NCBI RefSeq assembly: GCF_963665355.1
Contig: NZ_OY762229.1
Coordinates: 496,001-560,000 of the forward strand
Direction of reading: 5' to 3'
Origin: an uncultured Desulfobacter sp.
GTDB lineage: Bacteria; Desulfobacterota; Desulfobacteria; Desulfobacterales; Desulfobacteraceae
Length of the DNA stretch: 64,000 bases
The notes below the pieces were generated by a model. It searched no databases and had not been told where the DNA came from. It saw only the letters and a program-made list of their open reading frames with translations. The position numbers and the translations under genes are program-made. Positions 13,238-59,973 of this stretch are shown here, in pieces (the stretch's first letter is position 1; every line of letters begins with the position of its first letter).

Positions 13238-13338
13238 TTTTTTATATGAAAGAGCTCGATAAGTTACTGAGTTCTTTCATTCTTTGTTGTGGGCCGAAGC
13301 CTGGCAGGTGATATGTCAGGTCGGCCCATGGCCGTTAT
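13238..13338 (-). repeat. Two-hairpin dispersed repeat, copy A
   Basis: Read on the minus strand, an outer stem TGGGCCGA/TCGGCCCA encloses CCTGACA/TGCCAGG. This is followed by CACAACAAAG and a second stem built from ATGAAAGAACTC/GAGCTCTTTCAT, then ATATAAAAAAA. Related copies occur at 41286 (plus) and 59871 (minus). The outer-stem base pair that is C-G here is T-A in the 59871 copy, which is compensatory. This copy lies 17-117 bases upstream of the receptor 1 start. Confidence 0.7.
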
Positions 13339-13411
13339 TGACGGATATTTTATGAAAATTGTCCGCATTACTATTTTGTTATCAAACAGCTAATAGCATC
13401 AGGCAATTGCG

Positions 13412-13459
13412 AATGCTTGTCCCAAATGAATTTTTAATGCTTGTCCCAAATGAATTTTT
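13412..13459. promoter_or_regulatory. Perfect 24-bp tandem direct repeat, likely AraC operator
   Basis: Two identical 24-base units (each AATGCTTGTCCCAAATGA followed by ATTTTT) lie head to tail at 13412-13435 and 13436-13459. They sit about 190 bases upstream of receptor 1 and downstream of its AraC gene. A candidate -35 (TTGATA, minus, near 13380-13385) follows. The AAATGAA core also occurs in the repeats upstream of receptor 3 (19519). Between here and 13610 there are only GC-rich inverted repeats near 13500-13575, which may end the AraC transcript. Confidence 0.55.
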
Positions 13460-13610
13460 TGTGTTTGAAATAAAAAAAAGGCAGGAAGCCGGATAATAAA
13501 CCCCAATGTCGGGGTAGACAATGACAGGAAGGGGCTATTGCCGACAGCCCCCGGGATGAAGCAGACCCGGGGAAATCAGTAACGGCCTGATCCGTTTTAC
13601 GAAAAGCCCT

Positions 13611-14600
13611 TCACAGGTGGGGTTTGAAACAAAGGGACGGTTTGATGCCGAATTGATCGGAAAATGCTTGGATGAACGAAGACAGGCTGCTGTAACCCAC
13701 GCTCAGGGCAGCCTCGGTGACATTGATCTGTTTTTCTTCAAGTAAGAACCTGGCCTGTTCAAGCCTTGCCCGGCGCAGAAAACCAAAAACCGTGGTGCCA
13801 TATACCTGCCGAAAGCACCGGTTGAGTTTGGCATGGGAAAGTCCGACACTGTCGGCCAGTTCGTACAGGGTTGGGGGGGATTCAAGGTCCCGGGTAAGTA
13901 TCTCTCTGGCATGGCACACCCGGTCAATATCGTCTGATTTAACGGCCTTATCCAAAACGCCCCCCTGGGCCGTCATCTGTTCAAGCTTATATACAATCAG
14001 CTCCAGGACCCTGCTTTCAAGATAGATCCGTTTTGTGACTCCCTGATACGGGCAGTTGAGAATCTGATGAAGCGCTCTTTTCATTGCAGCGGTATTTCGG
14101 CCTTTGTCAATATATGGTGCTTTCCTGCGGCCGCCGGAAGTCTTGGCAATGGAACCAGCCAGTCTGTCAAATTCGTCCTGGGCAATGTCGGCAAATAGAT
14201 CCGCACTGATACAGATCGTGACACCCAGCTTTTGTCCGGCAGCCTCGCTGGAGCTGCTGGCACGGGGCATATAGAGCAGGCCGTTCTCTCCTGAACCGCC
14301 GGACACCGGGTCTTTGATACCATGTATCCAGGTCCTGGTTTGCCCTGAAGCCAAAAACCCAAGCCCATAGGTCTTCCAGTAGGTTTCTCTCATATCATCA
14401 TCAATGGACAGATCTATGGGCCTGTTCAGCCGGTAATTCATAACCGACAGCTCAAGCCCCTGCTTAATACGGGTTGTCAGAACGGTCCCCTCTCCGAAGG
14501 ATGGTGATAAATGCAAGCAGGTTTCCAAACAATCCTGCGCAGCCCCATCCTCCTGGAATACATCTTGGAATGTTTGGGGGGTGGTGGTCGTGATCGACAT
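13611..14600 (-). CDS. AraC family regulator, next to receptor 1
   Basis: The product has 329 residues. The C-terminal AraC domain shows TLYELADSVGLSHAKLNRCF and NVTEAALSVGYSSLSSFIQAF, followed by FGIKPS. The middle contains the block IYLESRVLELIVYKLEQM, shared by the PchR-type regulators of this window. AAGGAT lies about 10 bases before the ATG. The gene ends 390 bases upstream of receptor 1 on the same strand, with the 24-bp tandem repeat between. It probably activates receptor 1 and the linked genes when the cognate ferric chelator is present; the effector is not known. Confidence 0.88.
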   Translation of the reverse strand: MSITTTTPQTFQDVFQEDGAAQDCLETCLHLSPSFGEGTVLTTRIKQGLELSVMNYRLNRPIDLSIDDDMRETYWKTYGLGFLASGQTRTWIHGIKDPVSGGSGENGLLYMPRASSSSEAAGQKLGVTICISADLFADIAQDEFDRLAGSIAKTSGGRRKAPYIDKGRNTAAMKRALHQILNCPYQGVTKRIYLESRVLELIVYKLEQMTAQGGVLDKAVKSDDIDRVCHAREILTRDLESPPTLYELADSVGLSHAKLNRCFRQVYGTTVFGFLRRARLEQARFLLEEKQINVTEAALSVGYSSLSSFIQAFSDQFGIKPSLCFKPHL

Positions 14601-15070
14601 TTTGCTTTGTATCCTTAGTTCTGTGTGTGCCTGAAAACTTCATGCCCTGTTTCGTTACAAGTTTTGGACCCTTACTGATACATCAGCATGTTCGGTATCT
14701 ATTTTACAGCGTTGTGTGACATTTCATTGAACACCTAACAGTGTTGAGTGTACATGTCAAGCTTTGGCTTTGAGTTATGAGAGGCAGGGTGCAGCTGGAA
14801 TTCTGATTTTTTTTGGGTGGGCAAATTTTTCAGACTACCGTTATCGGTTTTACCTGTGGATTTCACTGATGAACTGCCGGTTAAACTTTGCTCATGTGGA
14901 ACTTGCACCCACTGATCACAATATCGTTGTGTCTGGTGTCCTGGATTAACTGCCTCCTCCATCTTGAGAACTGGAAGCAAAGCATTGCTGGAAAAAGGAA
15001 AGGGTTTCCCCTGCCGGGCCATAACCCTTTCCTCGGGGATTAAAGTAGATCTGATCCGGTATTACCCGTC
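14601..15070. other. Gene-free interval between receptor 2 end and AraC 13611 start
   Basis: These 470 bases hold no supported gene; the longest minus-strand frame (14735-15022) resembles nothing I recognise. Near the receptor side there is a clear terminator (separate entry). The part next to 14600 is AT-rich and presumably contains the promoter of the AraC gene, but no convincing -35/-10 pair stands out. Confidence 0.6.
14990..15033 (-). terminator. Intrinsic terminator of receptor 2
   Basis: A perfect 11-base stem (AGGAAAGGGTT at 14996-15006 with AACCCTTTCCT at 15023-15033) encloses a 16-base loop. On the minus strand it is followed by TTTT. It lies 38 bases beyond the receptor 2 stop. 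Confidence 0.75.
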
Positions 15071-15108
15071 TTAAAACCGGTAGGTTACTGCCATGGCTAC
15101 TTCCCGGG
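15052..15108. repeat. 57-bp segment shared with the MFS gene 3' end
   Basis: This covers the last codons of receptor 2 and 19 trailer bases, and is identical to 8728-8784 apart from one base. The match stops abruptly on both sides, as expected for a recombination junction rather than shared descent of whole regions. Confidence 0.85.
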
Positions 15109-17128
15109 GCGGTGAGGGGATGCTGTAGAGCCCGTCATAGTACCCTGTACTGCCATAGGTTTCGTCAAACAGGTTTTTGGCATACACGTACACATCAAAA
15201 GACCGGGCCTCGTATCCGGCCTTGAGATCGACCAGGAAAAATGCGGCCCGTTCATATTGGTTGGCCTTGTCCAGATACATCTTGCCGTATCCGTTGACAT
15301 CAGCCCTGGCAAACCAGCCGGCTTGTGAGCGGTACTGCGCACCGACGTTGAAATTGTATTTAGGTGCAAAAGGATTGGTGTTGCCGCTGTAGTTTCCGGT
15401 TGCATCACAAAATTCGTCAAAGGTCACATCGGTAATCCCTGCCGAGGCAAACAGGCTGATTTCGTCTGTTGCCTTGAATTGAGCACTGATTTCAACACCT
15501 TTGGACGTGGCCTGGGCCGCATTCAGAATCCATGTAAAGGTGTTGTCCACAGCCGTTTCCACCTGCATGTCGCTGATATCCATGTAGAACAGGCTGAAAT
15601 CAAGGTTCAGGCGGTTATTGAAAAAAACGGCCTTGACCCCGGCCTCATAGTTCCACACCGTCTCCTTGTCAAAACTTAAATTTTCAGTGGACCCGGTATA
15701 GGTCGGGGCAAAGGAATTAAACCCTCCGGCCCGGTACCCTTTGGATACAGTGGCAAATACGCAGGCATCGGGAATGGCTTTATAACGAACGGCGATTTTA
15801 GGAGAGATCGTGGAATAGGATCGCTCATCATGCAGGTTCGTGGAAGCCTGGGAAAACTCCTTTTCATCCCGGTCATACCGCAACCCGCCGATCAAAGAGA
15901 ACTTATCGGTGACAGACCAGTCTGTATGGGCAAACACCGCTTTGTTCTCTGCCCCAAGCTCGTGGGTCACATACATGGTATACCCGCCGCCCATCATGGA
16001 GATGGTGTTATCCACAAGATTGTCGTCTTTGTCCGTATATGCCCCGATCAGCCAGGAGACCGCTCCTGTGGTGGAACCGACCCTGAATTCACCGGACAGT
16101 TTTTCAAAATCATTGAGGCTTAAAACATGATACATGGCCATGGGATTGTCGGTGAAATCAAACTCTGCCAGGGAGTCCTGTTTATAATTCCAGTAACTGA
16201 AAACAGCCTCGAACTTGATGTCATTCCAGATATAGGACGTGTTCAGGGCACTGATGGTGGATGAGGGCTTGTCATAATATCCGCCGTTGAGATCTGATGT
16301 GATCACCCTGGGATCACTTGCTGAAATATCGTTCATGTTGATATTGCCGTTGTCGTACTGGATTGTCTGGGCCAGAAGGGACACTTCCAGGTCATCTGAC
16401 GGGGTCAGGCGCAGATTGATTTTGCCGAACCGGTATTCCTGGTCATTGGCCGTGTCATTGATCGTGGCATCTTCAATATAGCCCTCCTTTTCATAGTATT
16501 TGGCGGACACGCCCATGTAAAATTTGTCTGTGACCACGGGCCCGCTCACGGATGCCGAGGCCACGTGCTTGCCGTCTTCTCCAATCTCGCCTGTGACCTT
16601 TCCCCTGAATTCGTTGGACGGTTTCATGGTAATTACATTAACCACACCGGCTTCGGCATTTTTTCCGTACAAGGTGCCCTGTGGGCCTTTTAACACCTCA
16701 ATGCGCTCGATATCCTGCAGCAGGGTATCAAACCCGAACCCGCTGGTGTAGGGAACCCCGTCCACATACATGGCCGTGGAGGTGCCAAAGGAGCGCAAAG
16801 AGGCTGTCAGTCCCCGGACATTGGGGGTGCCAAGCCCTTCGGCTCCGGCGGCAAAATAGGACATATTCGGGGTGTGGACCATAATATCGTCGATACTTTC
16901 AACATTCATGTCTTCCAGGTCAAATCCGCTGAATACCGACATGGTGATGGGTACATCTTTTACGTCCTGGGTCTGTTTCTGGGCGGTCACCATAATTTCC
17001 GGAATCTCTTCCTCGTTTTGAACAACCGCCTGAATATCTGCGGCAAATACGCATTGACCCACCGACAGCCCGGCGCAAAGCAGCAGCACGGCCAAAGCGC
17101 GGCCAATTTGTTTGGATAAGTAAACCAT
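15071..17128 (-). CDS. TonB-dependent outer-membrane receptor, FyuA-like (receptor 2)
   Basis: The product has 685 residues. A signal peptide (GRALAVLLLCAGLSVGQCVFA) is followed by EIMVTAQKQ, the plug with MYVDGVPYTS and IEVLKGPQGTLYGKNAEAG, and a barrel ending in MAVTYRF. The start is taken at ATG 17128 because AGAGG lies 5 bases upstream; a GTG at 17134 is less well placed. On the minus strand a TATAAT lies at 17153-17148. The gene is monocistronic: a terminator follows. The AraC gene upstream (17278) and AATCCGGATT direct repeats suggest its own activator. Its 3' end has been copied to 8728, so a near-identical relative once existed there. Confidence 0.92.
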   Translation of the reverse strand: MVYLSKQIGRALAVLLLCAGLSVGQCVFAADIQAVVQNEEEIPEIMVTAQKQTQDVKDVPITMSVFSGFDLEDMNVESIDDIMVHTPNMSYFAAGAEGLGTPNVRGLTASLRSFGTSTAMYVDGVPYTSGFGFDTLLQDIERIEVLKGPQGTLYGKNAEAGVVNVITMKPSNEFRGKVTGEIGEDGKHVASASVSGPVVTDKFYMGVSAKYYEKEGYIEDATINDTANDQEYRFGKINLRLTPSDDLEVSLLAQTIQYDNGNINMNDISASDPRVITSDLNGGYYDKPSSTISALNTSYIWNDIKFEAVFSYWNYKQDSLAEFDFTDNPMAMYHVLSLNDFEKLSGEFRVGSTTGAVSWLIGAYTDKDDNLVDNTISMMGGGYTMYVTHELGAENKAVFAHTDWSVTDKFSLIGGLRYDRDEKEFSQASTNLHDERSYSTISPKIAVRYKAIPDACVFATVSKGYRAGGFNSFAPTYTGSTENLSFDKETVWNYEAGVKAVFFNNRLNLDFSLFYMDISDMQVETAVDNTFTWILNAAQATSKGVEISAQFKATDEISLFASAGITDVTFDEFCDATGNYSGNTNPFAPKYNFNVGAQYRSQAGWFARADVNGYGKMYLDKANQYERAAFFLVDLKAGYEARSFDVYVYAKNLFDETYGSTGYYDGLYSIPSPPREVAMAVTYRF

Positions 17129-17226
17129 AAACACCTCTGTAGTTTTTATTATAACTATTTAACTTTTACGCGAACGACTAACTGATAATGGATTGTCTAC
17201 AGATGTGCAAGGGCGTGCAGGGTCAA

Positions 17227-17257
17227 AATCCGGATTCGATCAGGAATAATCCGGATT
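17227..17257. promoter_or_regulatory. AATCCGGATT direct repeats 21 bp apart, likely AraC operator
   Basis: The 10-base palindrome AATCCGGATT occurs at 17227-17236 and 17248-17257, so starts are exactly 21 bases apart on the same face of the helix. The pair lies between the AraC gene at 17278 and receptor 2, about 100 bases before the receptor start and well upstream of the TATAAT at 17148-17153. Confidence 0.55.
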
Positions 17258-17277
17258 GGTGTATGCGTGAGAGCCGG

Positions 17278-18294
17278 TCAGGAATCCCTGTGGCCGCATT
17301 TATGGTTGCCGGGAGTGGTGCCGAACTGCCTTTTGTAACAGGCAATGAAATGGCCGATATTGATGTAGCCCACAAAATCAGCGGCCTGGCTGACATTGGC
17401 TCCCTGGTTGATGATCATATCCCGGGCACAGGCCATGCGGTGGTGCTGAAGATATTGTAAAATCGTGGTGCCGAACACCTGCTTAAACCCTTTTTTAAGC
17501 TTGAATTCATTCAGTCCGGCTTTGCGGGCAAGAATCGATATGGTGGGCGGGGCCTGCATATCCCGGATCAAAATCCGGGCGGCATTACGGATACTCTCCT
17601 CCTCTTCAGGCATCAGGGGCCTGTCCGGGCTGACACCTGGTGTGCGGGTGAGCAGATCAATTTGCAGGGAGAGCAGCTCAACAGCTTTGGCCTCCATGAA
17701 CAGCTGCCGGGATGATCCGGAAAGATCACAGGCAAACACCTGGTGTGCCGTATTGAGCATGGCGCCTGTCATGGGAAGGCCGCAGATGGGACTTTCACCT
17801 TGCAGAATCCTGCGGCACGGTTCAAAAATGTTTTTCAGATCAACGTCAAGATAGCGGGCTAAAAGTGCGGCATCGATCTGGATGGCAATGCTGTTGAAGG
17901 TCTCTTGACCCAGCAGGCGGCTGACGCCTGAGGTGCCGGACATGCGGCAGATGGAATTGGTACCGGCCTGGTTGGTAAACTGTGCACCGGTGCTTTTCTT
18001 TTTCCCGGTATAGACCGTATGGGTGCTGCCGCTCAGGCAGTACCCGAACTGCAGTGGCGCGTGTTCTATTTCAAACTCATATTCAGCCAAATGCTTAGGA
18101 TCTATCCGGGCGGCATACATGCAAAAGCCTTGACGGACCGGCGTGATGGAAAACATCTCCGGCCCGGTCTTTTGTCCCGGTACCAGTGACTTGGAAAGTT
18201 CAACCGGATCTTTGCAGGCCAGGTCATCAGCGGAATTATAATTTATCCGAAAGGTGTTTGACGTTCCGGCATCCCGTTTTTCCGCCTGCTGCAT
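17278..18294 (-). CDS. AraC family regulator, next to receptor 2
   Basis: The product has 338 residues. The C-terminal DNA-binding domain includes TISILARKAGLNEFKLKKGF and SQAADFVGYINIGHFIACYK, ending in FGTTPG. The block LFMEAKAVELLSLQIDLL marks it as another PchR-type paralogue. It ends 149 bases upstream of receptor 2 on the same strand, with the AATCCGGATT repeats between. The N-terminal half is probably the ligand-sensing part. Its N-terminus differs strongly from the other three AraC proteins, which suggests distinct effectors. Confidence 0.88.
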   Translation of the reverse strand: MQQAEKRDAGTSNTFRINYNSADDLACKDPVELSKSLVPGQKTGPEMFSITPVRQGFCMYAARIDPKHLAEYEFEIEHAPLQFGYCLSGSTHTVYTGKKKSTGAQFTNQAGTNSICRMSGTSGVSRLLGQETFNSIAIQIDAALLARYLDVDLKNIFEPCRRILQGESPICGLPMTGAMLNTAHQVFACDLSGSSRQLFMEAKAVELLSLQIDLLTRTPGVSPDRPLMPEEEESIRNAARILIRDMQAPPTISILARKAGLNEFKLKKGFKQVFGTTILQYLQHHRMACARDMIINQGANVSQAADFVGYINIGHFIACYKRQFGTTPGNHKCGHRDS

Positions 18295-18419
18295 GGATTC
18301 GCACCCCGATAATAATTAGCAATACATAACTTTATTCACCATTAGCATAATTTTTTACAACAAATCAACACTGCGTTTGATAACGGTGAAATAATTAGGG
18401 GACAGACTACGTTTTGTGA

Positions 18420-18476
18420 AAGGCTTGCGGAAATCAACTCCAAGACCTTGCTTTCAAGAAACATTAAAAATAACAG
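18420..18476 (-). pseudogene. Fragment of a further PchR-type AraC gene
   Basis: A minus-strand stretch reads LLFLMFLESKVLELISASL, which closely matches the conserved middle block of the intact AraC paralogues here (for example LFLEAKALELVALQLKQL). No DNA-binding domain follows in any frame before 18342. The interval 18295-18510 therefore seems to hold the decayed core of a fifth AraC gene. Confidence 0.5.
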
Positions 18477-18510
18477 CCGGTCTCCGTTTTTTTTTGTTGT
18501 AAGATCCGGT

Positions 18511-19491
18511 TCAATTTGATGGTGCCCCACATGCCTTAGGATTTATCCCGTACTCTTTGCGAAAGGTCTTAGTGAAGTGGCTTAAGCTTGCGTAGCCTAC
18601 ATTGTAAGCCGCTTCCGATACGCTGCATTCACGGCTTGCGATCAGTTCCCGCGCCGTTTCAAGGCGTATGACCCGCAGGTACTCGAAGGGAGACAGGCCA
18701 AACATCTCTTTGAATCCCTGGGTCAGGTGGTTATGGTTGAGCCCTACCCTGCGGGCAAGATCCAGCACCCTGGGTGGTTCCGCCATCTCTTTTCGTAAAA
18801 TCTCACAGGCAAAGGCAATTTTTTCCGCACGGTGTTCAACGACCTGCTGTTCAGGTGTGTTGCCTGTCAAATAGGCCAGCTGTTTAAGTTGCAATGCGAC
18901 CAGTTCAAGGGCCTTGGCTTCCAGAAAAAGGGTTTCAGCGGGATTTTGCATAAAAGAGGTCACCGCTTGATACCCGCATATTTTCTGGGCAAAATCGATA
19001 TTTTTTAATCGCATCAGTGTTTTTTGTTTTTTGATACCTGTATCAAGATAATCCAGCGACGCCGTCAGTTCGTTGCTGCTTTTTCCCGTCAACCTTGTAA
19101 AAACAGCAGGTGCCATGAATACACTGACCGTTTGGACAGGGATATTGGCAGTTACATCCACAAAAAGTACAGGGTCGTGTTCAGGCAGATCAATGGAGGA
19201 AAATCCAGCCCCTAAAGGAATCCTGGGCCTGGCATAGGAAAAATGATCAATGCCTGACAAATCAATGAAAAAACCAATAAGCGGCGGCATTTGTTTTACC
19301 GGAAACAGTCGAATTTTCCCGGCCCCGTGCAGAAAAAAATTTTGAATGATTACAGCGATGCCGCTTTGAAAGGAAACAAGCCGGGTCAGGAAACCTGCGC
19401 CATAGCCGGGGCTGACTTCAATAGACTGAAGTTGTTCGCCACATTTGGAAAAATCGCCTTTGATTATTGTTTTTACATCCATTGAAATCAT
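18511..19491 (-). CDS. AraC family regulator, divergent from receptor 3
   Basis: The product has 326 residues. The C-terminal AraC domain shows RVLDLARRVGLNHNHLTQGF and SVSEAAYNVGYASLSHFTKTF, ending in YGINPKACG. The middle block LFLEAKALELVALQLKQL is typical of the PchR-like set in this window. The gene is transcribed away from receptor 3 (19640) across 148 bases that contain 21-bp-spaced direct repeats and a Fur-box-like sequence. It is probably the activator of receptor 3 and its methyltransferase, with iron repression by Fur on top. An alternative start at ATG 19482 cannot be excluded. Confidence 0.88.
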   Translation of the reverse strand: MISMDVKTIIKGDFSKCGEQLQSIEVSPGYGAGFLTRLVSFQSGIAVIIQNFFLHGAGKIRLFPVKQMPPLIGFFIDLSGIDHFSYARPRIPLGAGFSSIDLPEHDPVLFVDVTANIPVQTVSVFMAPAVFTRLTGKSSNELTASLDYLDTGIKKQKTLMRLKNIDFAQKICGYQAVTSFMQNPAETLFLEAKALELVALQLKQLAYLTGNTPEQQVVEHRAEKIAFACEILRKEMAEPPRVLDLARRVGLNHNHLTQGFKEMFGLSPFEYLRVIRLETARELIASRECSVSEAAYNVGYASLSHFTKTFRKEYGINPKACGAPSN

Positions 19492-19518
19492 AACTGTTCG
19501 ATCCCTGTCACAACCCTG

Positions 19519-19548
19519 AAAAATGAACCCAGCGCCAAAAAAAATGAA
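19519..19548. promoter_or_regulatory. AAAAATGAA direct repeats 21 bp apart, likely AraC operator
   Basis: AAAAATGAA occurs at 19519-19527 and again at 19540-19548, exactly 21 bases apart, in the divergent region between AraC 18511 and receptor 3. The AAATGAA core is shared with the 24-bp tandem repeat at 13412. Confidence 0.45.
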
Positions 19549-19571
19549 TATACCGCAAACATGCTGAATCA

Positions 19572-34543: not shown

Positions 34544-34547
34544 CCCC

Positions 34548-41192: not shown

Positions 41193-41640
41193 GATTCATT
41201 CCTCCTGTTTTATAGTTTGCTTTCCCCATCGCTTACTCTTTATCAATAACCTGAATAAAAATATATCAGAATAGTCTTTAATTTCTTATAACAGCCATGG
41301 GTTGATCTGGCATATTACCTGCCAAACTTAGCCCACAAAGAAGGTTGAAAGACCTTGTGCTGGTTACACAGACTTTCTTATCAAACGTCTTATGATAAAG
41401 GATCGTTTCAAATTCTCATTGAGAATTACATCAATAATCAAACCTTATCAATGCCTAATTTAAAACCCCATAAGCACTGGTATCTCTAATGTTGTGGCGA
41501 GGGCGCAGTCCACTCTTCTGAAATTTCACCGATAAATATTTTCGTTCCAACACACAATCTTAAAACGAAATACTAACGCAGGCTTAGTACCCGCGTTAGA
41601 TGTTTTTCGCGGGTCAAAATCAGCGGGTTGCCAGATTCAC
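41193..41640. other. 448-bp gene-free interval downstream of the BtuB-like receptor
   Basis: No coding frame of interest occurs. The interval holds copy C of the two-hairpin repeat (41286-41385) and otherwise AT-rich sequence. The lipoprotein promoter is presumably near 41200-41270. The end next to 41640 is where the receptor transcript must stop, but no clean terminator hairpin is visible. Confidence 0.6.
41286..41385 (+). repeat. Two-hairpin dispersed repeat, copy C
   Basis: On the plus strand, ATAACAGCCATGGG opens an outer stem TGGGTTGA/TTAGCCCA (with G-T pairs) around TCTGGCA...TGCCAAA. Then CACAAAG leads into a second stem GAAAG...TGTG-loop-CACA...CTTTC followed by TTAT. It shares the layout and core bases with copies A (13238) and B (59871) but is in the opposite orientation. 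Confidence 0.65.
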
Positions 41641-43608
41641 TTAGAATTTGACCCGAATACCGCCGTAATAAACAGCTTCTGCCGCAGGATAGTAAGATCC
41701 GCTGTAGCCGTCACAGTATTCCTCATTAAAGATATTGGTTGCATTGGCAAAGAACTCCACCTGCTTGTAGGGGTAAGCCAGGTATACATCAACGGTATGG
41801 GCCTGGTCGAGCTTTTCATCGGAATTATTAAAATCACTTCCCGCGTACCTGTCATCCAGATAATTATACTGGCACCTGAATGTCAGGCCAAAGTCAAAGT
41901 TCAAGGCAAATCCAAGCGTTGCCTTGAACTCAGGGACCAGAGGAATTTTGTTTCCGCTGATATCAACACCATAATACTGGCCGCTGACGACTTCGGCATC
42001 GGTGTATCCGGCACCTGCGAACAAAGTAATCAGCCGGTTTGCTTTATAATCAACATTCAGCTCGCCACCCCGGTGCCGGGTTTTGTTCAAATTCTCATTC
42101 TGACCGGTCAACCAGCTCCCCACCCAGGTAATCTCATCATCGGCATCAAATGTAAAAAGCCGCAAATCAGCTATCAGACGGCTTCCCATCCCCACAAACC
42201 GGACACCAGCCTCATAGCCCTTTGAGATTTCATGGCTCAGTTCCTTATTTATGGCTCCTGTGGAAACATTCATGAATTCATCAACCCTGGGGAATCTGTA
42301 TGCCTGGTAAGCCCGCACATAAACTTTTGACCGATGTGAAAAAATATATGCCAGACCGACATTCCAGGCCCATTCATCCTCATCCACATCCTTGTTCGTA
42401 CCCAACATGACATATTTCAGGCTGGTGTTGCACTCTTCATACCGGGCACCAAGATTTAAAATTAAATTTTCCAGTATGCCGAACTCGTCCTGTAGATAAA
42501 ACCCGGCTGTATCCTGGCTGTGGTCATAGTCTGAATAGTGATAAAACAAGGCATCATAGTCTGTATCGTAATATTCAAACCCAAGGGTCAAACGATTCTC
42601 TTTTCCGAAGATGGAATGGTCCAGGACATACTGGGGAGTGACGCCAACGGTGTCCAAATCATAATCAAAGGACGAGCCCCAGGAGATATCGTGCCGCTCA
42701 TAGGTTCGATAGCTGAAATCAACATTGAAGCGGCCAAACGTCCCCCAGTCAGATTTAACCGACAGGATATACGCGTCATCCTGGCTCTCTCCTTTATCAT
42801 CGGGGAAATCGGGATCAGCCTGTTTTCTGTCCGTCTCCATCTCGGCTTTGGTCAGGCCGCCGGGGTATTCATAATCGGCTTTGGTGGTTGACGCCTTAAA
42901 GGAGAGCCCCAAGGCATCTGACGGATCATAGTTAAACGTTGCCTCAGCATTTTGCCGGCTGGCATCGGAATGGTCTCTATACCCGTCGGTATCATAAAAC
43001 CCTCCGCCGATACTTCCTGCAAATTTTCCGGAGGAAAAACTGACCCCGGCAAGTCCCTTGGCTGTACCATGGGAGCCGATACCTTCCTCCAGCCATCCGT
43101 GCACACCGTCCCGGGCCTCTTTGGTGATAATATTAATGACACCGCCCATGGCATCCCCACCGTACAGCACAGAGTTACCGCCGTGAACCAATTCAATTTT
43201 TTCAACATTTTCGATGGGGATGGAAAGGAAATTGACCGGCGACTGGTCAATGGGGTTGATTTTTCTCCCATTGACCAGAACCGCCACATGACGGTCGCAA
43301 GATTCACCAAACCCGCCCATATCAACTTTTTGATACATTGAGTTTCCGTTGAGATCTGAAACAACAACCCCGCCAAGGTGTTTAAGCGCATCGGGCACGG
43401 ACTGGGCTCCGCTGGACTTAATCTCCTCGGCCGTGATCACCGTAATCTGGGCCGGAACCTTTTCATTGGCCTGTTCGGACCTGCTGGCCGTAACAATCAT
43501 ATCGTCCACCAGCACCACATCATCCTCAGTTTTCGTCTCGTCTGCCATACCCGGACAGGGCAGTGCCAGAAAAACAGACATCAAAACCAACCACAACTCT
43601 TTTTTCAC
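41641..43608 (-). CDS. TonB-dependent receptor, BtuB-like (cobalamin)
   Basis: GTG 43608 has AGGAGG five bases upstream and gives 655 residues with a signal peptide (LVLMSVFLALPCPGMA). The TonB box region is DDMIVTASRSEQ. The plug contains ITAEEIKSSGAQSVPDALKH and IELVHGGNSVLYGGDAMGG, the wording of the BtuB/FepA group, unlike the FyuA-like receptors of this window. The barrel ends YYGGIRVKF. A cobalamin riboswitch and terminator precede it, and the divergent operon encodes B12 transport and salvage, so uptake of cobalamin or cobinamide across the outer membrane is well supported. Confidence 0.92.
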   Translation of the reverse strand: MKKELWLVLMSVFLALPCPGMADETKTEDDVVLVDDMIVTASRSEQANEKVPAQITVITAEEIKSSGAQSVPDALKHLGGVVVSDLNGNSMYQKVDMGGFGESCDRHVAVLVNGRKINPIDQSPVNFLSIPIENVEKIELVHGGNSVLYGGDAMGGVINIITKEARDGVHGWLEEGIGSHGTAKGLAGVSFSSGKFAGSIGGGFYDTDGYRDHSDASRQNAEATFNYDPSDALGLSFKASTTKADYEYPGGLTKAEMETDRKQADPDFPDDKGESQDDAYILSVKSDWGTFGRFNVDFSYRTYERHDISWGSSFDYDLDTVGVTPQYVLDHSIFGKENRLTLGFEYYDTDYDALFYHYSDYDHSQDTAGFYLQDEFGILENLILNLGARYEECNTSLKYVMLGTNKDVDEDEWAWNVGLAYIFSHRSKVYVRAYQAYRFPRVDEFMNVSTGAINKELSHEISKGYEAGVRFVGMGSRLIADLRLFTFDADDEITWVGSWLTGQNENLNKTRHRGGELNVDYKANRLITLFAGAGYTDAEVVSGQYYGVDISGNKIPLVPEFKATLGFALNFDFGLTFRCQYNYLDDRYAGSDFNNSDEKLDQAHTVDVYLAYPYKQVEFFANATNIFNEEYCDGYSGSYYPAAEAVYYGGIRVKF

Positions 43609-43639
43609 TTTTTCCTCCTGAAGGTAATGGTCCGGGCAT

Positions 43640-43670
43640 AAAAAAACCGGACCGATAAAATTCAATCCGG
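43640..43670 (-). terminator. Intrinsic terminator of the cobalamin riboswitch
   Basis: On the minus strand CCGGATTG pairs with CGGTCCGG (8 pairs including two G-U) around an 8-base loop, followed by seven Ts. It lies between the aptamer and the receptor GTG, so it is the expected expression platform: B12 binding would allow this hairpin and stop transcription. Confidence 0.8.
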
Positions 43671-43699
43671 GATGTCCCAAACTATCTCAGGATTCTTCC

Positions 43700-43895
43700 G
43701 CGCCAGCCCTCTCCTCGAGGCTATAGGCACCTTGTCCAGGCAGGTCTTCTGACTTCCGGATCTTGCTCTCCCTGCCCCTTCCCGGCAAAGTGCGCCAGTG
43801 GTTTAATGCAGAGACCTCTTTTTTCCGGTTACAGCGGCGGGCCCGTTCCTGACTTTCACAGGATTCCCTTCCAGCAGTTTCTTTCTGAAACGGCC
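43700..43895 (-). promoter_or_regulatory. Cobalamin riboswitch
   Basis: The minus strand shows the aptamer core in order: GGAAGGGAATCCTGTGAAAG, CAGGAACGGGCCCGCCGCTG, TAACCGG, CCACTGG, GCCGGGAAGG, then the AGAGCAAG and CGGAAGTCAGAAGACCTGCC end. This is the standard B12-box architecture of the adenosylcobalamin riboswitch. It leads into a terminator and the BtuB-like receptor. The divergent BtuF-CbiZ operon has no such element on its own strand as far as I can see. Confidence 0.93.
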
Positions 43896-44141
43896 ATTGT
43901 GATGTTACACACACCTAAACAAATTTTTTTTGTACTTTTAAACTGATGTATAACACTTGTCAAACAGTATGAATATTGAGTCAGCTGTTCTGGAATTCGG
44001 CAAAAAGTATGATATAAAATCCATATGTCCAAAAGCCCTGCCCAGACGATTTATCCTTGACAATTGGTCCGGGGTCTTGAATATGAAAAGATCTGGGGGC
44101 CAGGCAAAACAATTTTTTTACCGGGTGAAAGGAAAAAGAGG

Positions 44142-51886: not shown

Positions 51887-51889
51887 AAT

Positions 51890-54800
51890 CTATCCTAAAA
51901 CGTTGAGTTCCACCAACACCTTTTCAATAATTTCTGCCGCCGGCTTGAATTGATACCCCGCAATGAGGCGGCCTAATTCCGTCACATCAGGCTCAAAATT
52001 TTTGGGCCATGCCAGGGCTGTAATTTCTTTCATCCGATCCTTTGCAGGTTTTGCCTCCCGTTTTTTAACAAACGGGACAAGCTCGTTCAGCATCACAGCC
52101 AGCTCTTTTTCAGATTTGATCTCCATACCCTCCGGCAACGGCGCATCTTTAACAACGGATCCTGTAAGTTGATCCACTGAAGACAAAACAACAGGCAACT
52201 CCTGAGAAAACAGTGTCATCAGGGCATTATATTCAGCTTTAATTTTGTCACGAAAAGCGGTTTCCAGATTGCCTGCCGCCCGTTGAAGGCCAGTCATGCC
52301 GATATTTCCGGCAACACCTTTGATGGAATGGGCCATGCGCCGGGCCTCTTCATCCTGTCCCTTTTCAATGAGAGCCCTTAAATCCCGGTCGGCAAGGGCA
52401 TAATTTCGCCTGAATTTATCCAGCAGATCCAGATAGAGCGCCTCATTTTTATCCAGCCGGGAGAGAGCCTGTTGAACGGATATCCCCGGAACGTCGCCAA
52501 GAGTGATGTGTGTATCTGATTTTTTTTCAAATTTCTCCGGCAGGGGCCTGTTTCCGGGTTTGATCCACCGGGAAAGGGCCTGGAACAGCTCTTTTAAATC
52601 AATGGGCTTGCTCACATGGGAATTCATGCCCACAGCCATGGCCTTTTCCCGGTCCCGGGGCATGGCAGAGGCCGTCATGGCCACAATGGGCAGCTCCTGG
52701 GCTGTTTTATGCCGCCGTATTTCACGGGTGGCCTGGTACCCGTCCATCACCGGCATTTGAAGGTCCATGAAAACCAGATCAAAATCCCGGGACAGTGACA
52801 TGGAGAGGGCTTGTTCTCCATTATTTGCAATTTGCACCACAAAACCGGCACCTTCCAGAATTTCCCTGGCAACCTGCTGGTTGATGTCATGGTCCTCGGC
52901 CAGAAGGATATTGGCCCCCAGAATGGTTCTGGGCAGCTTTTGCTCGTCTCTTTCCTGGCTATATACCAATTTCTGATGGCCAAAGGCCCTGAGCAGGCTG
53001 TTAAACAGCTGGGAGGAGGTGGTGGGTTTTACAATAATACATTCAATTCCCATATCTCTTGCCCGGGAACGAACCTGCTCATCTTCTCCGGTGCAGGCCA
53101 GAATCATTTTGGGCCGGCTGTGGGCCTGGGTAACCCCGTGAATCTTGCGGACAGTTTCAAACCCGTCCATGTCAGGCATCTGAAGATCAACCAGCACAAG
53201 GTCATAGGGCTGCTGGGCCTCAGTAATTATGGAAAGCCCTTCTTCTCCGGACCCTGCACCCTGGGCGGTTATGGAAAAATTGTTAAGCATCTGGATAAAG
53301 ATCTGGCGGGATGCGGGATTATCATCAATGACCAGCACCGTGATTCCGGCCATGACCTCATCCAGCTTGGGCAGCTCAGGTGCCTCATTAGGCCCGATAT
53401 CCATGGGAATGGTAAAGGAGAAGGTACTGCCTTTCCCGGCCGTGCTTTCAAGAAATATTTCACCGCCCATCATTTCAACAATTCGTTTTGAAATGGCAAG
53501 TCCCAGGCCTGTGCCTCCATATTTTCGTGTTGTGGAGGAATCGGCCTGGCTGAATGCTTTGAACAGCTTGTTCTGCTGTTCCGGCGTCATACCGATACCG
53601 CTGTCCGTGACACAGAATTTTAGCACAGCCTGATCTTTTTCCATCTCCAGCATATCCACAGACACAATGATGTGACCTTTATCGGTAAATTTCACGGCAT
53701 TGTTGCCAAGATTGACCAGGACCTGATTCAACCTTAGCGGGTCGCCTTTCAGGATATTGGGAATCCGGGGATCTATCCTGAACAGCACCTCCAGGTCTTT
53801 TTTGGCAGCCGCTTTGACTGTAATCAGATCCGCAAATTTTCCCATGGTGTCATCCAGGCTGAAATCCACAATTTCCATGTCCATCTTACCGGCTTCTATC
53901 TTGGAGAAATCCAGGATATCGTTGATCAGGTTCAGCAAGGACTTGGCAGAGGAATCAATTTTGGCCGCATAATCCATCTGTCTTGTATCCAGACTGGTCT
54001 GCATGATCAGATGAGTCATGCCGGTGATGGCATTCATAGGGGTCCGGATTTCATGGCTCATATTGGCCAGAAATTCGCTTTTTGCCTTGTCTGCGGCCAG
54101 CGCATTCTGCTTTTCCTCCCTGGCAACGGCCACGGCCTGGGCCAATTTTTCATGGCTTTCCATCAAAGAGGCTTCCGCCTGTTTCCTCAAGGTGATATCC
54201 CTGAAAACAATCACCGAACCTTTGGCCTGACCATCCTTTTCTATCCGGGTGCTGGAATAACGAACCGGAAAAAAGGTGCCGTCCTTCTGCCAGAGCACCT
54301 CCTCCTGGGCACTGTGCGGGTCCGTGATATGCGCACGACACATAGAACACTCTTCATAGGGATAAGGGGTATGATCCGACCTGGTGTGGTGGATGGTGTG
54401 GTGGACAGACCGGTTTAAAATCTGACCCTCTTCAAGGTTGAGCATATCCAACGCCGCCCGGTTTATAAAGGTGCAGTTTCCTTTATCGTCCTGGCCGATA
54501 ATCCCCTCCCCCGCAGAATCCAGAATCAGCCGCTCATGTTCCTCGGCAATCCGAAGCGCCTGTTCGGCCTGTGTTCTGTGTTCCACCTCTTTTTTAAGCT
54601 TAGCGTTGGAAAAAAGAATAATGCCCAGAATGGTGCATGAAACAAGAGCCATCCCGGAAATCCATTTCCACAGAAGGGTCCAGTTCATTTTGTGCTCAAA
54701 CTGCATGCGGACCCAGTCATCCTTGATCCTGTTTTTTTCAGATTCCGGCATGTTTGCCAGAATTTTGTCCAGGATGGAGACCAGTTGGGGCCAATCCTTT

Positions 54801-57619
54801 CGCACCCCCATGGAGAGTTCAAACTTGTAGGGGGTCACAGCGGATATTTTGATATTGGCCAGCCCGGTCTGTCTTGAACAATAGGTAATGGAGGCAAGGT
54901 TTCCCACAAAGACATCCGCTCTGTTTCGGCTGATCTGCCTGAGCCCCTCGGTCACCGACTCAACGGGTGAAAGTTTAAGTCCAGGAAAATCTTTGTTAAG
55001 AATTTCCTGGGACACATACCCATCCACCACGACAATTGTTTTGCCCTTCAGGTCTTCAAGGCCACTGATAAACGGGAAGTCCGTTCTTGCGGCAATGACC
55101 ATGGGGAAAGACAGATACGGATTGGTAAAATTAAGAAACTTTGCCCGGTTGGGGCTGGGGGTAATGCAGGGAAACAGGTCAATTTCTTTTTGCAGCCCTT
55201 TGTCCAGGGCCTGTTGCCAGGTTAGACCGGTCTGAGGTTCCATGGAGATATTGAGTCTTTTTTCCACGTTTTTAATATATTCGGACGCCAGGCCGGAATA
55301 TCCGTATTCCCTGGAGTAGAATTCAAACGGCGGCCAGGCGGGATCAATTCCCAGCCTTAAGACCGGGCGGGATTTCAGAAAATCCTTTTCTTCGGGTGAG
55401 AGCAGAAGCATGGTGTCCTGGCCCATATTCTCCAGATCTTCCATCCAATGCTCGTTGATCAGCCGGTGGGATTCCTGGGAGATATTTTCAATGGCTTTAT
55501 TGACGGATGACACCAAAAGGGGCCAGTCCTTCCGGATTCCAAGGCAGAGTCGGGATTCCGGCCAGGGCGCCGGAGCGGCAATTTTGAGCGTATCAACACC
55601 CTTTTCATTCAACAGATATTTGATGACCATGAGATTGCCGACATAGGCATCGGCTGTACCGTTGGCTACACTATCAAGGGCATTGACCGTATTATTGACC
55701 GTTTGAAGTATGACTTCAGGATATTGTTCCTTCAATCTGGACTGTAAAAAGTACCCGTCCTCAATGGCCAGGGTTTTCCCGAACAGATCTTCAATCCCGG
55801 TAATGGCAGGCGTCTGTTTTTGGGTTACAATCACATAGGGACTGACAAAATAGGGGGCGCTGAAAGAGAGCCATTGCTCACGCTCCTTGTTTTTGACAAT
55901 GCAGGTCATGCCGTTTGCTTTACCCGCTTTGATCAACTGGATCATCTGATTCCAGGGATAGTCGCAGATGACTTCAAACCGGATTCCCAGGCGGCGTCCG
56001 ATCAGGTTTATATAGTCCGCAGCCACCCCTTTATACCGGCCGGTGGGATCTGAAAAGCCAATGGGCGGCCATCCGGCATCCCCCAACAGCGGAATCACCT
56101 GGTGGGTTCTCAGCCAGGCTTTTTCTTCCGGGGTCAGGATATTGGCCATGGTGTTGTTTCCATACTGTCTCAGGGAGGGATCTTTGATCCAGCGCGCTTC
56201 GATATCGGCCAGTTCAACATCGGACATGGCGGCAAGGCCTTTGTTCACCGTCTCTAATAAAGCCGGATTATTTTTGGCCACACCCGCATAAATGGGCTGG
56301 GTCATTTTGCCCTGGGACAGAAGACCGTACCCCCCTTGCTCTCCCCGTCGTTCAAGCTGGGCCGAGACATAGGGCAGTTCTGCGAAAAAGATGTCAAAGG
56401 CCCCCTGGGAAGCCTCCTGGAGAAGGTCCTGATCCGTGGGCTGCACCAGAAAGGACGTTTCGCTTGCCCGTATATGATTTAATTGAATGGTACCGGCATC
56501 TGTCCCGATAATCTTTCCCTGTAAGTCGGCCAGTGTTTTGGGGGCATCCGGTCCAAGTTTGTAAAAAAAACCGCTTTCCATCCTGTAGAAGGCTTGGGAG
56601 AATGCAATTGTTTTTTCCCGGTCTCTGGTCTTGCTCAGGCCGGAATGGATATCTGCCCGTCCATCCTTGATGGCCTTTAATGAATCTTCCCAGCTGAAAA
56701 ATTTAATATTTATTTTGCAGCCGGTTTTGGCGGCCCACAGCCGCCATACATCCACCAGCATACCGGACGGATGCCCCCCGGCACTGATCATGGACATGGG
56801 CGGGTACTCATTGGAGCAGGCAATGGTCAGTGCATTGACTGCAAGATCCTGGGATCTGCCGGTCCATTTGCGGAAAACAGCGGCCTTGTCAGCCTGTGGT
56901 ATCTTTTGCATACCGTTTCGCACAACCTGAGCCAGGGCGTCATTACCTTTGCGTACGGCGCAAAGCCAGTCCGCTTCGTAAAGGGGTTCCTGATCAAAAT
57001 ACCGATACTCGTTCAGTATCCCCTTTTGTTTGAGCATGGCCAAAGCGATATTGGTGTCTTTGACAAAGGCTATAACATCACCGGATTTTACAGCATTAAA
57101 CAAAGATTGGTTGTCCGGATATACAGCCAGGGTGGCATCGGGTATTTTCTGTTTAACATAATCAATGGCCGCATCGCCTCGGATAATGCCGATGCGAAAA
57201 CCACGCAGATCATTAAGACGCTTGATGCCCAGGATATTTTTTTTCACAAAAAAATGGGTTCTGACCTTCACCACAGGTGTCACGAAATCAAGGGTTTTAC
57301 TCCGTTCCTGGCTGAAAAAACACCCGGCGTGGACATCGGCATCTCCATTTTGAACGGCTATGAGGGTCTGATAAAAGGGAACAGGTTTGAAAACAACTTT
57401 TATTCCGGTCTGTGCGGACCAGATATTCCAGATATCCACCACCAGGCCTGCGGGGTGATTTTCCTGATCCAGGAAATAATAGGGGATGCTGTCCGTGCCC
57501 ACAGCAACGGCAACCTGTTTGGGCGGACTGTTTGCCAGACAGGTGTTTGCCGCAAAATCAAATACAAAAAAAATGGCTAAAATATAGAGTACTGCCGTAA
57601 TGGATCTATTTGAGTTCAT
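51890..57619 (-). CDS. Hybrid histidine kinase with four periplasmic SBP_bac_3 domains
   Basis: ATG 57619 gives 1909 residues with a signal helix ([20 protein letters not shown]). Four tandem type-3 solute-binding modules follow at roughly 30-255, 260-490, 490-740 and 745-975. A transmembrane helix ([18 protein letters not shown]) lies near 990. In the cytoplasm come a PAS domain (~1025-1140), HisKA ([15 protein letters not shown], His near 1187), ATPase ([28 protein letters not shown]), two receivers ([12 protein letters not shown] near 1480; [12 protein letters not shown] near 1618) and an Hpt domain ([12 protein letters not shown] near 1766). It is a BvgS/EvgS-like phosphorelay protein; two binding modules are usual, four are not. 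The ligands are probably amino acids or similar. Confidence 0.93.
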
Positions 57620-57879
57620 TTTGTTTTTCCAGCAGAAACTTAATTTTCGAAATATTGAAAAGAATCTTATTACGTTAAGTTGGAAAAAGCAACTGTGGGG
57701 TTCGCACCGCACGAAAAGTGAAGCGTCCCAAGGTTAACGCCAATCTTTGCCTGCAGTCTGAATTTGCACACGGATATTTATCGGATTCTTCCCATTGGGG
57801 CTTTGAATGTTGAAAAAAATTTTGTAAGCTGTTTTCGGATGTTAACCGTGTTTGGAAACATAACAGGACTGGGATTGCC

Positions 57880-58077
57880 ATGCCGCTGGACATTGATTTT
57901 GATTCCATTGAACAGATTTTCTCCAATACCTGGGACCAGGACTGGGATTTTCTCTTTGAATTTGAAGTATACGAACTTCTGGCGAAATCCGGGTCGGAGA
58001 CGCCGCCCCGGGTCCGGGTGATTGGCAATGCGCCCAATAAGATCCGCTCCGCCGGACAGTTCAGGAGTTACCCATGA
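57880..58077 (+). CDS. Small protein, possibly the N-terminal stub of an ATP-grasp acyl-CoA ligase
   Basis: The product has 65 residues, starting MPLDIDFDSIEQIFSNTW. Its end LFEFEVYELLAKSGSETPPRV resembles the beginning of the ATP-grasp subunit of ADP-forming acyl-CoA synthetases (EYEVYxLL...G..tPp); nothing of the rest follows. It may be a decayed stub or a real small protein. The stop overlaps the S4 gene start by four bases (ATGA), which suggests translation is coupled. Confidence 0.4.
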   Translation: MPLDIDFDSIEQIFSNTWDQDWDFLFEFEVYELLAKSGSETPPRVRVIGNAPNKIRSAGQFRSYP

Positions 58078-58298
58078 CTGAAAAAAGAACTGTTTATATT
58101 ACCCGCGCCACTGTGGAATTATATAAAGTGCTCAAATTCGAAAATCTTGCGTCCAGCGGCGGCGAAGCCAAGCACATGATTGCCGACGGGCTGGTCCGGG
58201 TTAACGGGCAGATTGAGACAAGAAAAAGAAAACAAATTTTCCCCGGCGATGTTATAGAATTTTACGATATCACCCTTGATGTCTGCATGGAGAAATGA
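58074..58298 (+). CDS. Small S4-domain RNA-binding protein (YbcJ-like)
   Basis: The product has 74 residues and is almost entirely one S4 domain: VLKFENLASSGGEAKHMI, then DGLVRVNGQIETRKRKQI and FPGDVIEF. This is the YaaA/YbcJ family of stand-alone S4 proteins, which are thought to bind structured RNA such as rRNA. The 3' end overlaps the 3' end of the convergent KamA-like gene by 29 bases. Confidence 0.88.
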   Translation: MTEKRTVYITRATVELYKVLKFENLASSGGEAKHMIADGLVRVNGQIETRKRKQIFPGDVIEFYDITLDVCMEK

Positions 58299-59283
58299 GG
58301 GACGCATTGCCTTGCCCCTGAGCTATAGGATCTTCCGGTTCTTCAGGATAAAATCCGGTGTGGCCGTCGGGGTGGGTCAAAGGCCACCCTTTTTTGCCGG
58401 GGGCACCAAGCCAGGGGGCAGCCAGGGGCACCTTTCCGCCCCCCCCGGGGATATCAACGGCAAAAACAGGCATGGCCAGACCGGACACATGCCTTCGAAG
58501 TTCATTGACAATGGCAAGGGAGCGGCTCAAAGGGACCCTGAAATGGGCGGTGCCCATTGCCAGATCCCCCTGGAAAAGATAATACGGCTTTACGCCCAGA
58601 CCCACAAGGCTGGTGAACAGCCCGGCTAAAACATGAACCTCATCATTCACCCCTTTGAGAAGGACCGTCTGGTTGGCAAGGCTTAAACCGTTTTTTCGCA
58701 AGCGTTCCAGGCATGCCCTTGTTTCAGCGGTCAATTCATCTGGATGGTTGATGTGAGTCATGATCCAGGCCCCGCCATGATCTGCCAGCAGGTCCATCAG
58801 CCGACCGTCCTCAAACCGGGCCGGGTCTGACACCGGCATGCGGGTTCCGATCCTCAGGGTGATATGGGAACGGGTCTGCCTGATTCCGTTGAGCAGGTAT
58901 TTCCACTGGTCAGTCCCCATGGTGAACGGATCACCCCCGGATAAAAGAACCTCTTTAATCTGACCATTCCCTTTCAGATAGTCCAGAATCAGCCCTGTCT
59001 CCCGTTTATCAAGGGGGCCGCATGCCCGGTGGGTTCCGGTGCGCCTGAAACAGTAACGGCAGTGGGCCGCACACTGGCCAGTCACATGCACCAGCAGCCG
59101 GTCTGGATACTGGTGAACCGCCCTCCCGGCTACAGTATAGCGGCCCTCCCCGAGGGGATCGGCCAGTTCATAATCCAATGTTGCCTCTTCCCGCTCATCA
59201 TACCTGAACATGGCGGCAACCGCACGGCTGTCAAGGGTTAGGGCCTCAAGGTGGGGTGTCATTTTTTCCGGGTACATCATCAA
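58270..59283 (-). CDS. KamA-family radical SAM aminomutase-like protein
   Basis: The product has 337 residues. The radical SAM cluster motif is CAAHCRYC (C71, C75, C78). The PLP lysine is K284 in DIPGGGGKVPL. D240 (FQGDLAMGTAHFR) and D277 correspond to the lysine-binding aspartates of lysine 2,3-aminomutase, which suggests an amino acid substrate rather than EpmB-type specificity. The protein is about 80 residues shorter than classical KamA and lacks most of its C-terminal extension. No lysine fermentation or ablB gene is next to it, so beta-lysine osmolyte synthesis or modification of EF-P are both open. Confidence 0.85.
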   Translation of the reverse strand: MMMYPEKMTPHLEALTLDSRAVAAMFRYDEREEATLDYELADPLGEGRYTVAGRAVHQYPDRLLVHVTGQCAAHCRYCFRRTGTHRACGPLDKRETGLILDYLKGNGQIKEVLLSGGDPFTMGTDQWKYLLNGIRQTRSHITLRIGTRMPVSDPARFEDGRLMDLLADHGGAWIMTHINHPDELTAETRACLERLRKNGLSLANQTVLLKGVNDEVHVLAGLFTSLVGLGVKPYYLFQGDLAMGTAHFRVPLSRSLAIVNELRRHVSGLAMPVFAVDIPGGGGKVPLAAPWLGAPGKKGWPLTHPDGHTGFYPEEPEDPIAQGQGNASLISPCRHQG

Positions 59284-59387
59284 TCCTTCTTTAAAATCCG
59301 GATATCATAACACACCGCCACCTTGACGGCCATTTCAAATTCGGCTGAAATCAAGGAGGGGGGGCATCTATTTTCCGATCTTACCGA

Positions 59388-59828
59388 CTAAATATTGCCA
59401 GAGCGCCTCAGAAGCAGCCGAGCTTCAGCCTTGCGGATACGTTCTTCCTGTTCTTCCTTGCGCTTCCAGGCGTTGGCCAGTTTTTCACTGATATCCTCAA
59501 AATCCGCCGGTTTCATCAGGTAATCAAAAGCGCCTTCCTTCATGCCTTCCACAGCGGTCTCCGTGGAGCCGTGGCCGGTGAGAAGGATGACTTCCGCCAG
59601 GGGATGACCAGCCTTGATTTTTTTCAATGTCTCTATACCGTCCATGCCGGGCATGCGGATATCCAGGATCACTACGTCGATGGCTGTTTTTGCGAGCATG
59701 TCAAGGGCCTCTTGGCCTGAATTGGCGACAGATACCTTTTCCCCCTGCCCGGTCAGGCGCAGGGCAAACATCTCTGCAAAATCTTTTTCATCATCAACGA
59801 TCAAAATTTTTACCGGTATTTTTATCAT
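59388..59828 (-). CDS. Stand-alone receiver protein linked to DASS transporter
   Basis: The product has 146 residues. A CheY-like receiver (VKILIVDDEKDFAEMF, VVILDIRMPGMDGIE, VILLTGHGSTETAVEG, FDYLMKPADFEDI) is followed by a short charged helix (NAWKRKEEQEERIRKAEARL). It has no DNA-binding output. The receiver resembles that of NtrC-type regulators. AAGGAG lies before the start. It lies downstream of the DASS gene, separated by a copy of the two-hairpin repeat, and may be a phosphate partner for the kinase at the window end. Confidence 0.9.
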   Translation of the reverse strand: MIKIPVKILIVDDEKDFAEMFALRLTGQGEKVSVANSGQEALDMLAKTAIDVVILDIRMPGMDGIETLKKIKAGHPLAEVILLTGHGSTETAVEGMKEGAFDYLMKPADFEDISEKLANAWKRKEEQEERIRKAEARLLLRRSGNI

Positions 59829-59870
59829 GGGTTTTTCTCCTTAAAAAATTTATGAGAGCGCTCGTCATTG

Positions 59871-59973
59871 TTTTTTTATATGAAAGATTGGGTAAGCCAC
59901 CAAAATCAAAATTTCAAACTTTGTTGTGGGCTGAGCCTGGCAGCTGATATGTCAGGTCAGCCCATGGCTGTTA
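59871..59973 (-). repeat. Two-hairpin dispersed repeat, copy B
   Basis: On the minus strand it begins at the TAA of the DASS gene: outer stem TGGGCTGA/TCAGCCCA around CCTGACA...TGCCAGG, then CACAACAAAG and a weaker second stem (TTTGAAATTTTGATT...AATCTTTCA), ending ATATAAAAAAA. The outer-stem T-A pair here replaces C-G in copy A. It could act as a processing or termination hairpin between the two genes. Confidence 0.7.

Follow-up and report, generated by a model that had tools for sequence, protein, structure and literature searches.

Repetitive extragenic palindromic (REP) elements of the GTAG type, which go with REP-associated tyrosine transposases (RAYTs), are high-copy intergenic palindromes of 20–40 nt that carry a short tag at the hairpin foot and occur in clusters and tandem units (PMC3733652, PMC6006769; these and the papers below are cited from excerpts of their text). 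Their tag often gives a gene its TAG stop codon, and CGTC-tagged REP elements are described as a palindromic family without a known dedicated transposase (PMC3733652). Ends-only elements of the IS200/IS605 group (palindrome-associated transposable elements, PATEs) have end structures without a transposase gene (PMC7290912). The bcr1 and other bcr repeats of Bacillus cereus are interspersed, often in untranslated regions and operon gaps, and bcr1-3 were described as similar to miniature inverted-repeat transposable elements (MITEs) (PMC3446304). Here we report a structured repeat found in three copies of ∼98 nt in one window, that is, the whole analysed stretch of 64,000 nucleotides (contig NZ_OY762229.1, positions 496,001 to 560,000, assembly GCF_963665355.1) from an uncultured Desulfobacter sp. 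It is very likely a mobile repeat. Taken as a whole, the results are probably best explained by a palindromic, REP-like mobile repeat that is non-autonomous and may be carried as single-stranded DNA by a transposase supplied in trans.

A 42-nt pattern, searched with up to 3 mismatches over the 5.64 Mb source genome, was found at 65 places, compared with none for the reversed pattern used as control. From the pattern loci 70 copies were read, of which 7 were left out because their 3' end was damaged or not recognised, and the other 63 were aligned and used to build a covariance model of 98 model positions and 8 pairs. The source genome contained at least 150 matches to this model; counts over 150 copies below refer to the matches listed, all of which cover the whole model, a few being only 80–90 nt with part of the sequence lost. 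Of 40 genomes, the source genome among them, 21 had matches: the source genome itself, 17 of 18 other members of the genus and 3 of 6 belonging to further genera of the family; the 15 genomes from outside the family had none. The source genome and G020 are rich in copies, and G008, G012 and G014 are poor in them. With stricter filters over 389 genomes of the class, 43 matched: 18 of the genus (source genome included), 20 of other genera of the family and 5 of other families of the order. The matches outside the genus were diverged. An exact 28-nt match was obtained in three named contigs, all from one Desulfobacterales metagenome-assembled genome. Plasmids and phages searched with one copy as query gave no match, nor did IMG/VR searched with one exact degenerate pattern, and no paper apparently describing this repeat was listed in searches of an open-licence library. 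The repeat is a dispersed, high-copy family across many genomes of one bacterial order. It was also observed that copies in the source genome join the 5' module of one subfamily to the 3' module of another in various ways, as if recombining (loci L009, L012, L136 and L138, for example, from a rough cross table).

The unit was ∼91 nt plus flanking TATAA and could be written as (T)A-ACNGCC-AYG-GGCNG...GCCCACAAC[A/G]AA..TGAAA...TTTCA-TATAA. In the 150 listed copies conservation spanned about TAAC-R-GCC to TTTC-A-TATAA, and beyond it the flanks approached background over some ten bases 5', where T and C were favoured, and some six bases 3', where A was. Each position of AAC was kept in 95–97% of copies and the preceding T in 81%, while the A frequencies at the first four positions just past the 3' end were 0.87, 0.63, 0.47 and 0.45. 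The two ends were sharp but unlike, and no terminal inverted repeats were found. A WMTAA-like sequence preceded most copies. When the three bases before AC were scored in 141 copies (9 being unscored), ATA was found in 87, CTA in 20, CGA in 15 and others in 19. The 3' end was TATAA in 60 of 87 copies with ATA and in 35 of 54 without it; because it was kept with ATA and non-ATA targets alike, it belongs to the element and is no copy of the target. Target duplication was not seen in the flank tallies or at two sites compared with and without the element. Nine tandem pairs lay within 140 bp, all head to tail and 8 of them spaced 91–92 bp, and in the pairs read TATA was common to both units at the junction.

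Sites with and without the element could be compared between the source genome and its relatives. One copy of the source genome was lacking in the relative G005, where the site reads GGACGAA/AACCCC. An element of G005 was in turn missing from the source genome, to which both its flanks align, and the A-run behind that element exceeded the one at the empty place by a few bases. Two further sites and the site of window copy 3 were element-free in G005 with less clean flanks, and another G005 site retained a decayed 5' remnant. One copy was common to the source genome and G016, and one to the source genome and G015. For copy 3, the comparison showed 29 other loci: 25, paralogues included, were aligned and unoccupied, with the stop codon TAG at 19 and TAA at 6, two rows were one G009 locus and two were unaligned. 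At this G009 locus (L108/L126) two copies stand in tandem on the stop codon corresponding to that of copy 3. With a 951-bp query around copy 1, the other genomes of the genus matched solely in the element, so that occupancy could not be judged there, and the 571-bp flank of copy 2 gave no match in the other 18 genomes.

We propose that the element would move as folded single-stranded DNA. The hairpins would be recognised by an HUH/Y1-like transposase, which would attach the 5' end after TA(A), and the 3' TATAA would allow a new copy to insert immediately after an existing one; through purifying selection, the copies that remain would be mostly those at gene ends. That an HUH-type enzyme moves the element in single-stranded form we regard as about an even call. 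A site-specific recombinase (tyrosine, serine or IS110-like) working through a double-stranded circle is rather unlikely to be the mover. In that scheme the circle junction TTTCATATAA-CAGCC would recombine with a target like the left half of the junction, which would fit a target resembling the element's own 3' end, the lack of target duplication and the head-to-tail pairs; as duplex DNA, the conserved CNGCC-AYG-GGCNG likewise forms a dyad. This dyad, however, begins just inside the crossover and is not centred there, and no recombinase is known to be linked to the repeat, no search for one having been made.

According to simple coding-score gene calls, 142 of the 150 listed copies were intergenic and 8 overlapped a predicted gene. 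The 5' edge is entered by 32 genes of the same strand. In 28 of them the stop codon is exactly the TAA at element positions 5–7; of the remaining four, two end at another place in that frame and two in different frames. The excess of stops in one frame (p about 3e-10 versus equal frames) was no reading-frame artefact, because the other frames also hit stops within the element. Stop codons were thus provided by 28 of 150 listed copies, compared with 32 of 882 noncoding WMTAA sites (3.6%, sampled loci). These results show a strong preference of the element for gene ends, which may be caused by targeting or by selection against other insertions. A different account would make the repeat a TAA-tagged class of miniature elements that targets stop codons, uses two exclusive hairpins as a transposition switch and is moved by a transposase type so far not tied to any repeat; we consider it doubtful, with a small chance of being right.

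Pairing was assessed in a structure alignment of 51 non-redundant copies from the source genome and relatives, with shuffled controls that retain the relatedness among sequences. The best-supported stem was a mini-hairpin at the 5' end, CNGCC-AYG-GGCNG, which was absent from the sequence-only reading that had first pointed out the three window copies. Of its cells 96.1% were paired, compared with 88.6% in the shuffles, and 25 cells were changed on both sides versus 7.7 in shuffles, none of 500 shuffles reaching 25. Its pair 9-19 was A-T in 22 sequences, G-C in 19, T-A in 4, C-G in 2 and other in 4; it was the sole mini-hairpin pair varying so, and its 4 pair types were no excess over the 3.6 of the shuffles. 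In the 150 copies of the source genome this pair was Watson-Crick in 137, G-T in 3 and neither in 10. The outer stem of the sequence-only reading was paired in 84.1% of cells versus 79.9% shuffled. The C-G to T-A swap claimed for it is real (copy 1 TGGGCCGA/TCGGCCCA, copy 3 TGGGCTGA/TCAGCCCA), and the swapped base varies at a third place too, just upstream, with CGGCC in copy 1 and CAGCC in copy 3. The swapped position, however, was unpaired in 17 of 51 sequences and Watson-Crick in 81 of 116 scorable copies of the source genome (34 being unscorable). The outer stem and the mini-hairpin have the strand GGGCNG in common and are mutually exclusive; over all copies the pairing of the mini-hairpin holds better than that of the outer stem. 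Hairpin 2 was paired in 85.6% of cells versus 82.4% shuffled, its pair 73-102 being changed on both sides in 9 sequences and one included inner pair failing in 26 of 50.

The paired changes favouring these three short stems were mainly seen with diverged relatives, and RNAalifold gave only 8 pairs and a weak covariation term on the 63 copies of the source genome alone. For all three stems, pair types and both-side-changed pairs were not clearly above the shuffles, only cell counts and scores exceeding them. As judged from these alignments, the structure appears supported, not proven, and most clearly so by the 5' mini-hairpin. A genome with the three copies only, no further covariation and pairing no better than shuffled was the outcome named beforehand as speaking against the element; it was looked for and did not turn up.

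The mutually exclusive pairing of the 5', middle and third segments is also what would be expected of a cis-acting RNA family (riboswitch, attenuator, or element of mRNA processing or stability) in which two exclusive stems form a switch. Among the 76 copies with a same-strand downstream gene, 22 end within 30 nt before the predicted start. In co-directional gene pairs 47 copies were sense as against 25 antisense (p = 0.013), a bias that an RNA role could also give. Over the 142 intergenic copies, however, the downstream neighbour was on the same strand in 76, on the opposite strand in 53 and uncalled in 13, so that the element is not consistently upstream and sense. The window copies matched no Rfam family at the gathering threshold, copy 1 gave only chance-level matches at a relaxed threshold, and no T-run follows hairpin 2. 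The sequence-only reading had allowed for a structured regulatory RNA as well as for a mobile palindromic repeat with selection for structure. The former is unsupported as the main nature of the element, because the downstream orientation is mixed, several sites are empty in relatives and stop codons of genes are in many cases fused to the 5' edge; an RNA family is improbable, and gene control by RNA as the main nature is unlikely. Support for the latter comes from the number of copies, the sharpness of the ends, the occurrence of occupied and empty sites, the head-to-tail arrangement of pairs and the paired changes. A secondary role in mRNA stability or processing, acquired after insertion, is possible.

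Five Y1 transposase matches were found in the source genome, and the three longest loci were, in our own reading, IS200-like in size and layout. The fifth locus was a fragment with copies of the repeat about 0.6 kb away. IS200 was rejected as the mover, no ends being common to the resident Y1 loci and the repeat. RAYTs above the family cut-off were found in 7 of the 15 other genus genomes searched (G016–G018 were outside this search), and 1 of 10 RAYT loci had a repeat copy, 1.1 kb away in a copy-rich genome. Palindromes beginning GTAGGTTGGG were present at the flanks of 3 of 6 RAYT loci inspected in relatives. At L223, L224 and L225 (in G006, G002 and G010, respectively) such palindromes with a GTAG tag (GTAGGTTGGG...) flank the RAYT genes and make up a REP family of their own within this genus. 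A RAYT was likewise rejected as the mover, since none above cut-off occurs in the source genome and other palindromes lie at three of the RAYT loci inspected in relatives. A search with the 5' end gave 180 matches, and 13 extra ones among the matches listed were inspected as possible left ends of a longer element; they look truncated, decayed or diverged. At L235, L237, L239, L243 and L244 of the source genome only the 5' part of the repeat is kept, followed by unrelated sequence.

Several of the results weigh against a REP-like repeat moved by a transposase. The model finds no copy at 4 of the 5 Y1 loci, no RAYT above the family cut-off was found in the source genome, none of the 13 extra 5'-end matches inspected proved to be an autonomous version, and no mobilising gene linked to the repeat was found. 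Y1 gene counts and repeat counts agree only loosely: many Y1 genes are found in several copy-rich genomes but none in G001 with its 32 copies, and G012 has three Y1 and lacks the repeat. A lagging-strand bias is expected of IS200/IS605-type insertion. The repeat was on the lagging-strand side in 84 of 150 copies (p = 0.16, with origin and terminus estimated from sampled skew), which is weak and not significant, and no conserved complement of TATAA before hairpin 2 was seen by eye. The sense bias and the stem counts given above also belong on this side.

The comparison with the described systems is accordingly mixed. Like the GTAG REP/RAYT elements, as far as the excerpts describe them, the repeat is a high-copy intergenic palindrome with a short tag at the hairpin foot, found in clusters and tandem units, and its tag supplies a stop codon, TAA here and TAG there. 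In contrast to them, its tag is TAA(C), neither GTAG nor GTGG, its unit is ∼91 nt with two further hairpins and an overlapping mini-hairpin instead of a 20–40 nt palindrome, and the source genome has no RAYT above cut-off flanked by the same repeat, as in a REPtron (PMC3733652, PMC6006769). In the manner described for PATEs in the part of PMC7290912 cited, it has structured ends but no gene for a transposase; target duplication is also lacking, and the element stands behind a fixed short target that its 3' end resembles. Its ends are, however, unmatched at 4 of the 5 Y1 loci of the source genome, although an autonomous parent may exist elsewhere; a guide complement, whose pairing may be non-canonical, was not recognised by eye, and the lagging-strand bias was not significant. 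It shares with the CGTC-tagged REP elements the lack of a known dedicated transposase, but the tag differs and the CGTC type is described among short REPs in the excerpt of PMC3733652. It resembles the bcr repeats, according to the excerpt of PMC3446304, in being interspersed and often in untranslated regions or operon gaps. The host is unrelated to that of bcr1. Insertion of bcr1 produces a target duplication, and none was seen here. The best reading is that the element works like REP and IS200/IS605 ends-only elements, yet fails in the tag, the transposase association and the matching ends.

The size, copy number and intergenic placement agree with those of MITEs as described in the excerpt of PMC3733652, but a classical MITE moved by a DDE transposase is highly improbable, being contradicted on both defining features: there are no terminal inverted repeats (5' AACAGCCATGGG versus TTATATGAAAG for the 3' end read backwards) and no target duplication. 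Equally far-fetched is an RNA-copied element primed at A-rich targets, a bacterial analogue of short interspersed nuclear elements, which would suit the A-rich stretch directly past the 3' end and the longer A-run at one site, but many of the 13 extra 5'-end matches (found via the 5' end) keep the 5' part and lose the 3' part, opposite to truncation by reverse transcription, and no reverse transcriptase supports it, none having been searched for.

In the window, the three copies lie where the sequence-only reading had placed them, as borne out by the sequence and by the model matches (E of 1e-17 to 8e-21, the 63 sequences of the model including all three), and the cores GCCATGGG, CATAT, CTGCCA and GCCCACAA are present in all three. 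Copy 1 (13242..13341, minus strand; 99.4 bits, 5.3e-19) contains the mini-hairpin CGGCC-ATG-GGCCG at 13322..13334, hairpin 1 (TGGGCCGA...TCGGCCCA) at 13290..13328, which has bases in common with the mini-hairpin, and hairpin 2 (TGAAAG...CTTTCA) at 13247..13279, with TATAA and an A-run behind it. A gene for a TonB-dependent receptor (11161-13221, minus) has its ATG 21 nt past the 3' end of this copy, and upstream of the copy a 24-nt unit (AAAAATTCATTTGGGACAAGCATT) is tandemly duplicated at 13412-13459 (minus). Copy 2 (41285..41383, plus; 93.6 bits) is intergenic and diverged, with the 3' end TTATCA; its mini-hairpin CAGCC-ATG-GGTTG, with one G-T pair, is at 41292..41304, and hairpins 1 and 2, read from sequence and fold, are at 41298..41335 and 41347..41377. 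The next gene in the open reading frame list, at 41641-43680 (minus), encodes a TonB-dependent receptor, and a Cobalamin riboswitch (Rfam RF00174, 103.6 bits) was observed upstream of it at 43722-43933 (minus). Copy 3 (59876..59977, minus; 107.7 bits) lies between genes for a sodium:sulfate symporter-like protein (59971-61584, minus), whose TAA stop codon at 59971..59973 is at the 5' boundary of the element, and a response regulator (59388-59828, minus). Its mini-hairpin CAGCC-ATG-GGCTG is at 59958..59970, hairpin 1 (TGGGCTGA...TCAGCCCA) at 59927..59964 and the hairpin 2 region (TGAAAT...TTTCA) at 59881..59916.

The two-stem fold claimed for these copies held in part: all three fold better than dinucleotide-shuffled sequences (z of -5.3, -2.5 and -3.4 for copies 1, 2 and 3, respectively), but the minimum-energy fold of copy 3 differs from it and leaves hairpin 2 unformed. 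GAAAG is not kept in the second stem as had been proposed, copy 3 having GAAAT plus a 4-nt insertion. The distances to start codons of 17 nt (copy 1) and 43 nt (copy 3) are correct when counted from the ends used there, and are 21 and 48 nt from the ends of the model.

The repeat adds a large structured family with a new tag and no known mover to those described, and its sharp ends, its sites with and without the element and one position with all four Watson-Crick pairs make movement testable. Repeats of this kind also interfere with the annotation of genomes and with searches for RNAs. Its seat on the stop codon lets a mobile element enter packed operons with the preceding gene undamaged, as is reported for GTAG REP elements, and two differently tagged families on stop codons would suggest a general route.

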